A stretch of DNA of 64,000 nucleotides from Glycomyces sp. TRM65418 (GTDB lineage Bacteria; Actinomycetota; Actinomycetes; Mycobacteriales; Micromonosporaceae). The notes below the pieces were generated by a model, which did not search any database, had not been told where the DNA came from, and worked only from the letters and a program-made list of their open reading frames with translations. The position numbers and the translations under genes were made by a program. Of the stretch, positions 8,586-44,908 are shown in pieces; within the stretch, counting starts at the first letter, position 1, and each line of letters starts with the position of its first letter. The stretch covers positions 372,001 to 436,000 of the forward strand of contig NZ_JAJFAX010000003.1 of NCBI RefSeq assembly GCF_019710475.1, written 5' to 3'.

Positions 8586-9158
8586 GCAGGCGACACCTCC
8601 TTCCAGCGCCCCGGATACCCGAGCGGGCCGGGAAGATGCGTCGCGGTCCGATCCGTTCGGGATCCGGGCCTGGTCTCCGGCGCGAACGTGGGCGTCGACC
8701 GGGCGAGTCGGCTGGTTGCGGCGGCTGCGACCGAGGCTGTGAGGCGGGACGCGATGCGCACCGGGTCGATGCCGGCGACGACGAGTGCCGCGCCGCAGCG
8801 GATCGCGGACGCGGCCCGGCGGTCGCGGCCCGGGCGGTGTCGGCGATGGGGACCGCCCAGTGGCGCAAGGGGATCGGCGCGAGGTTCGCCCCCGAGGCGG
8901 GCGCCTGCGGCGCTCACGACGACGCACGAGCAGCGGTCGGTCGGGTCCCGCCTCCTGGCCGGGCGGCGGGGTTCGGGCAGCGCTGGGACGCGTCGCTTCG
9001 GCGGGATGCGGCGGCGCCGACGGGCTCGATCGCCTGGGGGCCCGTGCGCTTCATGTCGCGAGACGTATCGAACACCCGTTTGCGGTTGCGCTCTGCCCGC
9101 AGTTCGGTATGTTGATCTTGATCTTGATACACATGTTCGACATAACACGGGGGTTCTG
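8586..9158. other. Intergenic region between oxidoreductase and imuA'
   Basis: A 573-bp region between divergent genes. The left 450 bp are GC-rich and I see nothing specific. The right part is less GC-rich and holds a LexA-type box at 9068-9083, a short hexamer repeat (TTGATC, TTGATC, TTGATA) at 9112-9129, and a likely ribosome site before 9159. Confidence 0.5.
9068..9083 (+). promoter_or_regulatory. LexA (SOS) box upstream of imuA'
   Basis: TCGAACACCCGTTTGC matches the actinobacterial LexA consensus (CGAAC, four bases, GTTYG) in both half-sites. It lies 75 bp upstream of the GTG proposed for imuA'. Mutasome cassettes are classical SOS targets, so context and sequence agree. The same consensus was not noticed elsewhere in the window. 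Confidence 0.75.
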
Positions 9159-9962
9159 GTGGCGACATCCGTCGCGGCCGCGTTGGCCGCTGAACTCGGC
9201 CTGCGCACAGCCGCAGAACTGCGGCCCGCAACCGAAGCGGGCGACGCACCGCCGCTCACTCGAACGCGCTCGGCCGCCGACACTCCTCCCGTCGCACTCG
9301 CCGGGGCCGCTGCGCGCCCGGACGCCCTCCCCGCGACGATCCGACCGCCGAGGACCATCCTGCCCGTCACCCCTGACATTGCCGCCCTGCTGCCCTTCGG
9401 CGGACTCGCAACAGTGACCGCAATCACCGGATCCCGTCGCGGGGCCACCTCCCTGCTGTGGCGGCTGCTGGCCGGTCCCACCAGGGCCGGCGCCTGGTGC
9501 GCGCTGGTCGGCATGCCCGGCCGCTATCCCCTCGCGGCCACCGCCGCCGGGGCCGATCTCCACCGGCTCGCGTTCGTCGACGCCGCCGGCCCCCGCATCG
9601 CCGACGCCGCCGGGGCGCTCGCCGAGGGCGTCGCCGCCCTGGTCGTCCCCAGCGACGGCCTCAGCCCTGCCCAGGCGCGGCGCCTCACCGCCCGCGCCCG
9701 CAAGGGCGGGACCGCGATCGTGTGGTGGGAGACCCGCCCCGTGGCCGGCCCCGACGCCCGGCTCGAGGTGGCCCGCGTGCGGTGGCGGGGTCTGCGCGTC
9801 AACACCGATCGGCGCTGGGGCGCCGGGCGGCTCCACGCCTGCGAACTCGACGTCGCCGCCCACTGGCGTTCCGGCGGCGGCCACCGCGCCCGGGTCTGGC
9901 CGTACGGCGGCGAGCCCCAGGGAAACGTCGTCGAGCTGCGCCCCAAAGGCGGGCGGCGATGA
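9159..9962 (+). CDS. imuA': ImuA' mutasome accessory protein
   Basis: 267 residues from GTG 9159, which follows an ACGGGGG ribosome site. The N-terminal 75 residues are low-complexity. A RecA-like core then contains LLPFGGLATVTAITGSRRGATSLLWRLL, a GAWCALVGMP strand, a DLHRLAFVD motif and ALVVPSDGLSPAQARRLTARARKGG. This is the pattern of actinobacterial ImuA', an accessory factor for translesion synthesis by DnaE2. The identity is supported by order: LexA box, imuA', then imuB and dnaE2. Its TGA overlaps the ATG of the following ORF. A classical Walker A motif is not visible, as usual for this group. Confidence 0.75.
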   Translation: MATSVAAALAAELGLRTAAELRPATEAGDAPPLTRTRSAADTPPVALAGAAARPDALPATIRPPRTILPVTPDIAALLPFGGLATVTAITGSRRGATSLLWRLLAGPTRAGAWCALVGMPGRYPLAATAAGADLHRLAFVDAAGPRIADAAGALAEGVAALVVPSDGLSPAQARRLTARARKGGTAIVWWETRPVAGPDARLEVARVRWRGLRVNTDRRWGAGRLHACELDVAAHWRSGGGHRARVWPYGGEPQGNVVELRPKGGRR

Positions 9963-10336
9963 GCACGACGGCGCCCGCAGCCCCGAGCGAGCCCGCCGAA
10001 CCGCGACCGCAGCGGCGGCGGGCGGGTCGCGACCACGGGCCGCTCGCCTCGAACGCCCCGGCCGCCGTGCGCCCCGGGCTGCGGCAGACCGTTCACGGGG
10101 CCCGCCCCGGGGCGTCCGCGCGCCGAAGCCGATCCGCCGCGGCCCTGCGGCAGGCACGCCGCGGCCCACTCGCATCCGGCGATCAGGCCGCCGTCCCACC
10201 CGGGCGGCGGACCACCCGCGGGCGCGGGCCCTTCCCGCCCGCATGCCGCCGCTCGTCCGCCGCCGAGGTGAGGGCATGGGCCTCCTGCGGGGTTCGCGAT
10301 CGCGCCCGCTCGCCCCACCGCCTTCCTCGGTGGTGA
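9959..10336 (+). CDS. Arg/Pro-rich ORF between imuA' and imuB (doubtful)
   Basis: A 125-codon frame that begins at an ATG overlapping the imuA' stop and ends 6 nt before the imuB start. The translation is rich in Arg, Pro, Ala and Ser with no hydrophobic core and no domain I recognise. Either it encodes a disordered protein coupled to imuA', or it is non-coding filler that replaced the missing first part of imuB. The positional fit argues for coupling; the composition argues against a folded protein. Confidence 0.3.
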   Translation: MSTTAPAAPSEPAEPRPQRRRAGRDHGPLASNAPAAVRPGLRQTVHGARPGASARRSRSAAALRQARRGPLASGDQAAVPPGRRTTRGRGPFPPACRRSSAAEVRAWASCGVRDRARSPHRLPRW

Positions 10337-10342
10337 CCGGCC

Positions 10343-11737
10343 GTGAGCGTGCAGGCCACCGGGACCCCGAGTCGGACGCTCGTGGCGCGGCTCCCCGATT
10401 GGGATCGTGAGGACGCCGCCGCCTTCGCGCCCGTGCTCGACGCCGTCGACCTCCTCACCCCGTACGTCGAGGTGCTCGAACCCGGCGCGTTCGCCGTGCC
10501 CCTCCGCCGCGGCGCGGGCGGCGAGGCGGCCTTCTGCGAGACCCTCATCGACACCGTGGCCGGACTCGTGGACCAGGACTGCGTCACCGGGGTGGCGGAC
10601 GGCCTCTTCGCCGCCGTGCTCGCCGCCCGCGAAGGCCGCATCGTCCCGCCCGGCGGCGACGCCGCCTTCCTCGCCGCCCGCGACATCACCGACCTGCGCG
10701 CCACGGGCCTGGTCGAACCCGAGACCTGCGAGACCCTGCGCCACCTGGGCATCACGACGCTGGGGGCGTTCGCCGCGCTCCCCGGGGCGGCCGTGGCCGA
10801 GCGGTTCGGCCCCCAGGCCCGCCGCGCCCAACTGCTCGCCGCCGGGCGGCCCGCCCGCCCCCTGGCCCCCCGCCCGGCCGACCCCGACCTCACCGTCGCC
10901 ACCGTCCCCGAGACCCCCTACGCCACCGTCGACCAGGCCGTCTTCGCCGCGAGACCCCTGGCCGAGCGGCTCCTGGCCCTCCTCGACGGCCGCAACCTCA
11001 CCTGCACCCGCCTCACCGTCACCGCCCGCGCCGCCACCGGCCTGACCCGCCGACGCACCTGGCAGGTCGACCCCGCCGCGACCGCCGCCGACCTGGCCCG
11101 CCGCGTCCGCTGGCAGCTCGAAGGCTGGCTCCTCTCCAGCCGCGGCGACGCTTGCGGCGCCGCCGATGAGCACCGGACCGGCGCCGTCACCGCCCTGGAG
11201 CTCACCCCCGGCGGCCTGCTCGACCTCATCGAGGCCGGACGCGGCCTGTGGGACGTCAAGGACCCGGCCACCGCCCGCGCCGAAGCCGCCCTCCGCCGCA
11301 TGCAGAGCCTGCTCGGCCCCGAAGCCGTCCGCATCGCCGCCGCCACCGACGGCCGCGGCCTGACCGAACGCGCCGGCAGCGCCGCCTGGGAAGCCGAAGC
11401 GCCGCCCGCGCCGCCCCGCGGACCGTGGCCCGGGGCGCTGCCCGACCCGCCTCCGGCGCTGGCCGGCACCGGCGAACCGGTCGACGTGCTCGACGCCGCC
11501 GGGACCCCCGTGGCGGCCCTCGCCCGCGGCGGTCTGTCCGCCACCCCGGCGACGGTGGCCTTGGGCGGCAAGCGGATCCCGATCGTCGCCTGGGCCGGGC
11601 CCTGGCCGGTGTCCGAACGCTGGTGGAGCCCCGCGGCCCGCCGCTACACCCGCCTCCAGGTCGAGCTCGCCGACGGCAGCGCCGCACTCCTGGTCTGCGA
11701 GCGCAGCCGATGGACCGTGGGCGGCTGGTATGACTGA
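10343..11737 (+). CDS. imuB: ImuB, Y-family polymerase-like mutasome scaffold, N-terminally reduced
   Basis: 464 residues from GTG 10343. The start resembles the family opening (RTLVARLPDWD at 11-21). It then jumps at once to AFAPVLDAVDLLTPYVEVLEPGAFAVP, which in typical ImuB proteins of about 520-550 residues comes some 60-80 residues later. The following VADGLFAAVLAA, GRIVPPGG, ITTLGAFAALPGAAVAERFG (helix-hairpin-helix) and the long C-terminal region are normal. ImuB is a catalytically dead Y-family homologue that bridges DnaE2, ImuA' and the sliding clamp. The missing part is the first strand-helix unit of the palm. Its stop overlaps dnaE2 by 8 nt. No strong ribosome site precedes it. Confidence 0.75.
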   Translation: MSVQATGTPSRTLVARLPDWDREDAAAFAPVLDAVDLLTPYVEVLEPGAFAVPLRRGAGGEAAFCETLIDTVAGLVDQDCVTGVADGLFAAVLAAREGRIVPPGGDAAFLAARDITDLRATGLVEPETCETLRHLGITTLGAFAALPGAAVAERFGPQARRAQLLAAGRPARPLAPRPADPDLTVATVPETPYATVDQAVFAARPLAERLLALLDGRNLTCTRLTVTARAATGLTRRRTWQVDPAATAADLARRVRWQLEGWLLSSRGDACGAADEHRTGAVTALELTPGGLLDLIEAGRGLWDVKDPATARAEAALRRMQSLLGPEAVRIAAATDGRGLTERAGSAAWEAEAPPAPPRGPWPGALPDPPPALAGTGEPVDVLDAAGTPVAALARGGLSATPATVALGGKRIPIVAWAGPWPVSERWWSPAARRYTRLQVELADGSAALLVCERSRWTVGGWYD

Positions 11738-27122: not shown

Positions 27123-28030
27123 CGCACGCCGGTCAGCTCCTCCGAGACCGACCACAGCCGCGCGGCCGTCTCGGGATCCCTCGCGGGCGCGATCACGTCG
27201 ACGAGGACCGGACCGCCCCGGTACTCGCGCCTGCCGTGGGGGCCGTAGTACTGGCCGCCCTGCGCGTTCGGGTCGGTGGCGGCCCGCAGCTGCGGCAGCG
27301 CCCCCTGTTCCACCGGCTGCGTGGCGAACCGCATGATGACCGACCCGACGAGGCGCAGCGGCCCGGTGAAGCCGTTGGCGACGAGCCGCGTCCTGGTGAG
27401 CCCGGGATGGGCGATCAGGCTGCGCACCGGGCTCCCGGCCGCGCGCAGCCGCCGGTCGAGTTCGAGGCCGAACACGGCGTTGGCGAACTTCGACTGCGCG
27501 TAGAAGGCGTACGGGCGGTACCGCTCGGCCCCCGTGAGGTCGTCGAAGTGGATCCGTCCGCGACCGTGCGCCAGGGAGCTGACGGTCACCACGCGCGGGT
27601 TCCGGCCCGCTTCGAGCAGGTCCATGAGGCGTCCGGTGAGCGCGAAATGACCCAGGTGGTTGGTGGCGAACTGGCGTTCGTGGCCCTGCGGGCTCAGCGA
27701 GCGCGGCGGTGCCATGAGCCCGCCGTTGTTGACGAGCAGATCGAGGCGGTCGCGGTCGGCTCGCAGCCGCTCGGCGAACGCGGCCACCGAGTCCAGATCG
27801 GCCAGGTCGAGGAGGCGCACTTCCAGACTCGCGCGAGGGAACCGGCCGCGGATCGCCTCGGCGGCCCGGCGGCCCTTGTCCTCCGAGCGCGAGGTCATGA
27901 TCACGTGCGCGCCGCGCTCGGCGAGCCTTCGCGCCGTCTCGAACCCGAGGCCGCTGTTCGCGCCGGTGACGACGACCGTGCGCCCGGCCTGGTCGGGGAT
28001 GTCCGCTGCGGTCCAGTGCTTGCCGCCCAT
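27098..28030 (-). CDS. Short-chain dehydrogenase/reductase (retinol-dehydrogenase-like)
   Basis: 310 residues. The cofactor motif TGANSGLGFETARRLA and an acidic/basic specificity strand (IMTSRS) suggest NADP(H). NNGGLM, the serine strand VVTVSSLAHG and the catalytic Tyr-Lys in YAQSKFAN are present. Length and the extended C-terminus match oxidoreductases often labelled retinol dehydrogenase-like in bacteria. The substrate is unknown. ATG 28030 has an AGGAGG ribosome site. It overlaps the MarR gene tail to tail, and the two may be functionally related. Confidence 0.9.
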   Translation of the reverse strand: MGGKHWTAADIPDQAGRTVVVTGANSGLGFETARRLAERGAHVIMTSRSEDKGRRAAEAIRGRFPRASLEVRLLDLADLDSVAAFAERLRADRDRLDLLVNNGGLMAPPRSLSPQGHERQFATNHLGHFALTGRLMDLLEAGRNPRVVTVSSLAHGRGRIHFDDLTGAERYRPYAFYAQSKFANAVFGLELDRRLRAAGSPVRSLIAHPGLTRTRLVANGFTGPLRLVGSVIMRFATQPVEQGALPQLRAATDPNAQGGQYYGPHGRREYRGGPVLVDVIAPARDPETAARLWSVSEELTGVRYPVGAEA

Positions 28031-43709: not shown

Positions 43710-44908
43710 ATGACGCCTTTCGCTCGCAGCAGGTCCAGCTGTTCGCGGGTGACGCCGGCCTCGGCGAGGACGGCGTCGGTGTCCTGGCCGTGGCGGCGGC
43801 CGGTCCAGCGCACCGCGCCCGGGGTCGCGGAGAGGCGGAAGAGCACGTTCTGCATCTTCATCGGGCCGAGTTCCTCGTCGTCGACCTGGAGGACGGTGCC
43901 GATGGCCCGGTACTGGGGGTCGCCGAGGACGCCGCGGACGTCGTAGACGGGGGCGATCGCGGCCTGGGCCTCCTCGAAGGCCGCGAGGACCTCGCCGGTG
44001 GGGCGGGCCGCGATCCAGGCGGACACGGCCGCGTCGAGTTCGTCGGCGTGCTCGGCGCGGGTGTGCCCGGAGGCGAACCAGGGTTCGTCGACGAGGTCGG
44101 CGCGGCCGACGAGGCGCATCACGCGTTCGGCGATCGACTGGGAGCTGGTGGAGACGGCCACCCAGTCGCCGTCGCCGGTGCGGTAGACGTTGCGCGGGGC
44201 GTTGTTGACCGAGCGGTTGCCGCTGCGGGGCTGGAGGACGCCGAGCTGGTCGTAGGCGGTGATCTGGCCGCCGAGGAGCATGAGGATCGGCTCGATGATC
44301 GCGAGGTCGATGACCTGGCCGCGTTCGTCGCGGTCGACGCCGCGGAGGGCGACGAGCACGGCGTAGGCGGTCGCGAGGGCCGCGATGCCGTCGGCGAGGC
44401 CGAACGGCGGCAGCGTCGGTGGGCCGTCGGGTTGGCCGGTGAGGGCCGCGAAGCCGCTCATGGCCTCGGCGAGGCTGCCGAAGCCGGGCCGGGAGGCGTA
44501 CGGCCCGGTCTGGCCGAACGCGGTCACGCGGGCGACGACGAGGCGCGGGTTGGCGGCGTGGAGGGCGTCGGGGCCGAGGCCCCAGCGTTCGAGGGTGCCG
44601 GGGCGGAAGTTCTCGATGAGCACGTCCGCGTCGGCCGCGAGCCGCAGGAGCAGGTCGGCGCCTTCGGCGGTGCCGAGGTCGATGGTGACGGTGCGCTTGT
44701 TGCGGCCCAGGGTCTTCCACCACAGGTTGACGCCGTCCTTGGCGGGGCCGTGGCCGCGCGCGGCGTCCGGGCGGGAGGGGTGCTCCACTTTGATCACGTC
44801 CGCGCCGAAGTCGCCGAGGAAGGTGGCGGCGATGGGGCCCGCGAAGAGCGTGGAGACGTCGAGGACGCGGAGGCCGTCCAGGGGCGGGGTGCGGTGCGGC
44901 GCGGTCAT
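43706..44908 (-). CDS. CaiB/BaiF family CoA-transferase
   Basis: 400 residues, typical for class III CoA-transferases. VLDVSTLFAGPIAATFLGDFGADVIKVEHP is the N-terminal CoA-binding signature; TLGRNKRTVTIDL and ENFRPGTLERWGLG follow. The catalytic aspartate is Asp173 (GLADGIAAL). It moves CoA between organic acids. Coupled by ATGA overlaps to both the TIM/SUMF1 gene before it and the CitE gene after it. Such a pair normally activates and splits a hydroxy-dicarboxylic acid; the acid here is unknown. Confidence 0.9.
   Translation of the reverse strand: MTAPHRTPPLDGLRVLDVSTLFAGPIAATFLGDFGADVIKVEHPSRPDAARGHGPAKDGVNLWWKTLGRNKRTVTIDLGTAEGADLLLRLAADADVLIENFRPGTLERWGLGPDALHAANPRLVVARVTAFGQTGPYASRPGFGSLAEAMSGFAALTGQPDGPPTLPPFGLADGIAALATAYAVLVALRGVDRDERGQVIDLAIIEPILMLLGGQITAYDQLGVLQPRSGNRSVNNAPRNVYRTGDGDWVAVSTSSQSIAERVMRLVGRADLVDEPWFASGHTRAEHADELDAAVSAWIAARPTGEVLAAFEEAQAAIAPVYDVRGVLGDPQYRAIGTVLQVDDEELGPMKMQNVLFRLSATPGAVRWTGRRHGQDTDAVLAEAGVTREQLDLLRAKGVI

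Follow-up and report, generated by a model that had tools for sequence, protein, structure and literature searches.

An imuA'-imuB-dnaE2 cassette with a lineage-fixed ImuB lacking the fingers domain in Glycomyces

Introduction

The window analysed in this study, a stretch of 64,000 nt from Glycomyces sp. TRM65418, very probably carries an imuA'-imuB-dnaE2 damage-tolerance cassette with a lineage-fixed, fingerless ImuB as its scaffold, the 380-nt stretch between imuA' and imuB being a separate, recent and untranslated spacer. The short ImuB is a real, inherited and ancient variant and not an assembly error. ImuB proteins with deleted structural elements have already been reported as a class: the available passages of a 2026 survey of bacterial DNA polymerases describe many such ImuB1 and ImuB2 proteins, the smallest of which keep the little finger (LF), the thumb and ImuB-C (PMC12926913). 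As far as these passages go, the Glycomyces protein is a lineage-fixed variant of that class; they make no mention of this lineage, nor do they specify the fingers as the missing element. What is new is the lineage map of a clean fingers loss that arose repeatedly and became fixed in the genus, as well as a genus-wide change in the clamp-binding motif. No paper naming ImuB together with Glycomyces was found in the literature searched, outside of which most subscription journals lie.

Organization of the cassette

In TRM65418 the genes follow one another in the order imuA', imuB, dnaE2, all on the forward (+) strand, and are preceded by a putative regulatory site:

9069..9082, + strand: SOS-box-like site CGAACACCCGTTTG, with one mismatch to CGAAC-N4-GTTCG, about 90 nt 5' of imuA'
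9159..9962, + strand: imuA', 267 aa counted from the GTG at 9159; the true start may differ
9963..10342, + strand: species-specific spacer of 380 nt, 82% G+C, containing an Arg/Pro-rich ORF (9959-10336) judged non-coding
10343..11737, + strand: imuB, fingerless form, 464 aa
11730..14909, + strand: dnaE2, overlapping the imuB stop; error-prone DNA polymerase by NCBIfam NF004225

The position of imuB between imuA' and dnaE2 is typical of ImuB2, the actinobacterial ImuB. The impression, gained from the letters alone, that DnaE2 and ImuA' are intact was borne out by their matches to NCBIfam models, which lie well above the cut-offs (NF004225, 1393 bits against 939 for DnaE2; NF058630, 105.4 bits against 65 for ImuA'). 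ImuA' is 57-79% identical to its Glycomyces homologues. Its C-terminal tail is of low complexity and hypervariable in length within the genus, from about 10 to 160 residues (imuA' 3' ends of L003-L016).

The same or nearly the same SOS-box-like site, CGAACACC[AC]GTTTG, is found 5' of imuA' in five other Glycomyces loci (L002/L233, L005, L013, L014 and L015), and we infer that the Glycomyces imuA' cassette may be under LexA control. Exact matches to the SOS-box consensus CGAAC-N4-GTTCG occur elsewhere in the window, at 27667-27680 and 44074-44087, both within long open frames.

The part absent from ImuB

The sequence-only reading had ImuB jump from RTLVARLPDWD straight to a segment that normally lies much further on. 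This jump is real, and it is common to all 20 Glycomyces loci with imuB. It maps to the following site:

10400..10426, + strand: junction W20-DREDAAA-F28, the site of the absent fingers domain according to the alignment and the AF2 models

Full-length actinobacterial ImuBs have 66 residues between the corresponding W and F (residues 12-77 in L104 and L027). When aligned with full-length proteins of the same family, TRM65418 ImuB reads RTLVARLPDW-DREDAAA-FAPVLDAV, so that seven residues stand in place of 66, which leaves the protein some 60 residues short of the usual length. The description of this protein as lacking its first palm segment was wrong: by the alignment, the AF2 models and the published domain limits alike, it retains palm strand beta-1 (RTLVARLPDW) and has lost the fingers. 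The published limits assign residues 1-10 and 74-165 of E. coli Pol IV to the palm and 11-73 to the fingers (PMC4564189), and residues 11-77 of Dpo4 to the fingers (PMC7641590).

AF2 models were built from TRM65418 ImuB and fetched sequences only, with L104 from Micromonospora as the full-length comparator. In L104, beta-1 (2-7) is followed by helix 11-20, strands 28-32 and 35-39, helices 41-45 and 54-60 and strand 65-68, before the palm helix (71-86) begins. In TRM65418 ImuB, beta-1 (11-16) is followed by one short helix (18-22) and then directly by the palm helix (25-38). Thus, the models with and without the segment differ by a single alpha-beta-beta-alpha-alpha-beta unit, which lies after beta-1 and before the palm helix. 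Since this order of elements corresponds to the published limits of the fingers in Pol IV and Dpo4, the absent part comprises the Y-family fingers domain and also the initial turns of the palm helix; the seven new residues, DREDAAA, are modelled as partly replacing these turns. Both models, which are of monomers, have a mean pLDDT of 85.7 and a modest pTM (0.58 and 0.47), and both match Y-family polymerases in the PDB (best E 3.9e-21 and 2.0e-14). Overall TM-scores are low, probably because of uncertain domain orientation in the models, and the domain-level reading rests on element order and sequence alignment.

Profile searches gave the same picture of an absent fingers domain. A Pfam search returned no match at all for TRM65418 ImuB. 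Pfam model PF00817 matches 42 of the 47 ImuBs in our alignment A6 but not this one, which indicates that a match to it goes with the lost segment. The presence or absence of the fingers was judged by a fingers profile and by direct reading of the sequences. This profile found no match in any forward frame of the named fingerless loci, and the idea that the 380-nt spacer or a different frame conceals the missing fingers was rejected, the spacer having no coding signal either.

Parts retained by ImuB

Over the region shared with full-length ImuBs, TRM65418 ImuB is 42-46% identical to them, and this homology covers the palm, thumb, little finger and ImuB-C. Its matches in other genera of the family reach E values down to 1e-110. 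In the ImuB profile, Pro-Gly stands at the position of the catalytic Asp-Glu of Rev1 and Pol IV; TRM65418 ImuB has LEPGAFAV at this place, and the catalytic acidic residues are absent. Two further parts are preserved:

11279..11329, + strand: RecA-NT motif AEAALRRMQSLLGPEAV, assigned by homology to ImuA' binding, aligned to ARRALVRVQGLLGPEAV and retained
11420..11734, + strand: ImuB-C domain, beta-rich and retained, with a conserved WAGPWPVxERWW block; AF2 strands at 379-463 with high pLDDT

Residues M320, L324 and V329 of TRM65418 ImuB occupy the positions of V374, L378 and V383 of M. smegmatis ImuB. We still count the fingerless protein as an ImuB2; the reduced ImuBs in the available part of the published survey are likewise filed as ImuB (PMC12926913).

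The stretch between imuA' and imuB

The Arg/Pro-rich ORF at 9959-10336 does begin in the imuA' stop, as had been noted (ATGA at 9959-9962). What was called a 378-nt insert is in fact an intergenic distance of 380 nt (9963-10342) from imuA' to imuB. This ORF had been considered as a possible new linker protein, and one might imagine a small Arg/Pro-rich product that replaces the fingers or connects ImuA' with ImuB. Its ATG overlaps the imuA' stop and its 125 codons are free of stops, which would speak for translation. However, an open frame rich in Arg, Pro and Ala tends to arise in a sequence with such a high G+C content, and the G+C content by codon position is flat in the ORF (0.81/0.79/0.86), as against 0.80/0.62/0.94 in imuB. 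Moreover, the ORF is missing from relatives that share the fingerless ImuB, and the closest relative, L002, has no DNA corresponding to it: alignment of the spacer with the 218-nt gap of L002 scored 30, where shuffled sequences gave a mean of 28 and a maximum of 46. Neither the ORF nor the spacer matches any family in Pfam, NCBIfam or Rfam. A linker protein thus appears highly improbable.

The imuA' and imuB genes of most Glycomyces overlap at stop and start (GTGA or ATGA). Among the Glycomyces loci compared, a clear gap between the two genes exists only in TRM65418, in L002 and in L012 (about 1.1 kb). The suggestion of a deletion with filler DNA is not supported, because in other Glycomyces the same short form occurs without any insert, the two genes overlapping. 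The 380-nt stretch is best read as a recent, apparently untranslated spacer specific to the species of TRM65418. It is unrelated to the loss of the fingers, which is far older. As the spacer removes the usual overlap, imuB in TRM65418 must start from its own site. A mobile element, a structured RNA and a repeat were each rejected as an origin of the spacer: it has no second copy in its own genome and no match in Rfam, and its folding energy is ordinary (z -0.96). A full match to it was not found in 22 other genomes.

Maintenance of the short gene

A damaged imuB, or a join created by a sequencing or assembly error in the TRM65418 genome, could have been suspected from a protein some 60 residues short, devoid of a Pfam match and adjoined by an unusual G+C-rich stretch. 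Nevertheless, this junction is shared by 20 genomes of Glycomyces and by sister genera, the imuB frame is intact, and the flanking imuA' and dnaE2 are intact as well. Values of dN/dS for imuB between Glycomyces pairs are 0.12-0.45 (NG86, approximate at high G+C), that is, well under 1, and the fingerless ImuB is under purifying selection. The chance that the gene is a pseudogene or an artefact is therefore close to negligible, and both were rejected.

Glycomyces genomes have either both imuB and dnaE2 or neither. The two genomes without imuB, G013 and G020, are also without dnaE2, and only a DnaE1-like polymerase with about 33-34% identity was found in them. Glycomyces amatae (G009; L077 and L095) has two complete imuA'-imuB-dnaE2 cassettes, both fingerless. 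The second of these is divergent, its ImuB being 57% identical to that of TRM65418.

Distribution and number of origins

imuB is present in 20 of the 22 Glycomyces genomes searched, each time in the short form; the genus was assigned through named loci (G. amatae, G. dulcitolivorans, G. xiaoerkulensis and others). The short form also occurs in genera g5, g8 (Actinorhabdospora filicis), g13, g14, g47 and g55. In g5 it was found in four genomes, one of them apparently Candidatus Stackebrandtia faecavium, and a fifth (G373) has the full-length protein. The ImuBs of g14 carry about 20 low-complexity residues at the fingers join. These findings agree with the proposal of a lineage variant independent of assembly, since the short form is fixed in Glycomyces and extends to sister genera. 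Comparison with relatives, the check proposed for the reduced form, did reveal the same short ImuB in them; it is therefore not new at the level of the species.

More widely, the fingers are kept in 72 of 80 named actinobacterial loci, give no match in seven and have been mostly lost in one (L147, a Pseudonocardiales MAG). Outside the family, they are absent from eight loci of family f67 (genomes of 1.5-2.2 Mb), from one of f75 (L229) and from one of f43 (L231), the f43 relatives L228 and L230 having kept them. The f67 ImuBs (L220-L227) are very small, about 357-359 aa from the first strand, and mostly keep a Q..FFG clamp motif; they are candidates for the smallest natural ImuB2. Additional palm-region insertions are seen in the fingerless ImuBs of L064 (e.g. 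EYDEASAAAASLR) and L229.

On a tree of the shared ImuB core, the short forms require five state changes, at least four of which are forced by well-supported branches. A single origin of all fingerless ImuBs was rejected (one-clade constraint, AU p 1.3e-124), and because of this the fingers must have been lost several times in Actinomycetota. The family-level short forms other than L067 (g47) form one group with weak support (61). The tree suggests that L067 represents a separate loss; the AU test (p 0.19) does not prove its separation from the Glycomyces group.

The clamp-binding motif

A second peculiarity of the Glycomyces protein lies in its putative contact with the beta-clamp:

11234..11251, + strand: degenerate beta-clamp motif AGRGLW, aligned to LQPGLW and to mycobacterial LQLPLW, with Gly in place of the conserved Gln

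The motif AG[RKQ]GLW is present in every Glycomyces ImuB examined (L002-L020, L077 and L091-L095, both G009 copies included). The Gln is kept in nearly all other aligned actinobacterial ImuBs, among them the g13, g14, g5, g8 and f67 forms. In M. smegmatis, the ImuB clamp motif 352-QLPLWG-357 is essential. No replacement motif of the QxxLF kind was found in Glycomyces DnaE2 or elsewhere in Glycomyces ImuB.

The clamp itself also differs. The C-terminus of DnaN reads MLQPLRW/F or LLQPLRF in Glycomyces, Stackebrandtia-like members and Actinorhabdospora, and LIMPIRV in other Micromonosporaceae (L246, which is the DnaN of TRM65418, and L252-L274). The change from Met to Gln affects what we take to be the cleft position corresponding to M362 of E. 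coli. Since members with an unchanged ImuB Gln have the altered C-terminus as well, this alteration alone is no explanation for the loss of that residue.

One could propose that Glycomyces ImuB and DnaE2 no longer depend on the canonical ImuB-clamp contact, and that the loss of the fingers was an earlier step of the same simplification. The genus-wide change of Gln to Gly and the lack of a new QxxLF motif in either protein would favour such a possibility. So would the QFDLFG sequence retained by Glycomyces DnaE1, which implies that the clamp presumably still accepts Gln motifs. On the other hand, the motif still has its Leu-Trp, which may permit weaker binding, and the sister genera are fingerless yet have the Gln, which uncouples the two changes. 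We regard this proposal as doubtful. It is likewise unlikely, although conceivable, that the Glycomyces mutasome has been rebuilt, with a fingerless ImuB devoid of the Gln contact and a clamp cleft that is changed throughout these genera (M of LIMPIRV to Q of MLQPLRW), so that the clamp contact recruiting DnaE2 would differ from that of mycobacteria or be much weaker.

Discussion

In active Y-family polymerases, the fingers hold the template base and the incoming nucleotide. ImuB, on the other hand, is a dead polymerase that serves as a hub or scaffold, and a catalytically inactive scaffold should need no fingers for either purpose; the repeated loss of this domain fits well with such a role. 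The fingerless protein would still bind ImuA' through RecA-NT and DnaE2 through the thumb and ImuB-C, and DnaE2 would perform error-prone synthesis, as elsewhere. Binding of ImuA' has been tied to RecA-NT by mutational work (PMC11791113), and the available part of the survey gives AlphaFold models in which DnaE2 contacts lie on the thumb and ImuB-C of ImuB (PMC12926913). With the Gln of the clamp motif lost, the Glycomyces complex could be weaker or could work differently.

The mycobacterial system (M. tuberculosis, M. smegmatis) shares with that of Glycomyces the gene order and overlaps, the dead Y-family core, the thumb, little finger, RecA-NT and ImuB-C, and the DnaE2 partner. The Glycomyces ImuB differs from it in having no fingers and in the Gly that replaces the Gln of the mycobacterial clamp motif. 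DinB (Pol IV) and Dpo4 have the same palm, thumb and little-finger fold, but they also possess the fingers and the catalytic Asp and Glu, neither of which is present in TRM65418 ImuB.

That an entire domain has been cleanly lost time and again hints at the part of ImuB that is dispensable for the mutasome, and suggests that the scaffold at work consists of the thumb, little finger, RecA-NT and ImuB-C. Fingerless ImuBs represent natural minimal ImuBs for structural work. Because they escape the Pfam Y-family model PF00817, annotation can miss them. The Gln loss throughout Glycomyces offers a testable exception to the essential ImuB-clamp binding of M. smegmatis.

A separate observation concerns contig C37 of the same genome, where a remnant of 39 residues with an internal stop (L240:2609-2725, - strand) is 62% identical to residues 405-443 of ImuB-C; judging from its sequence, it may be a decayed second ImuB copy or a fragment of one.
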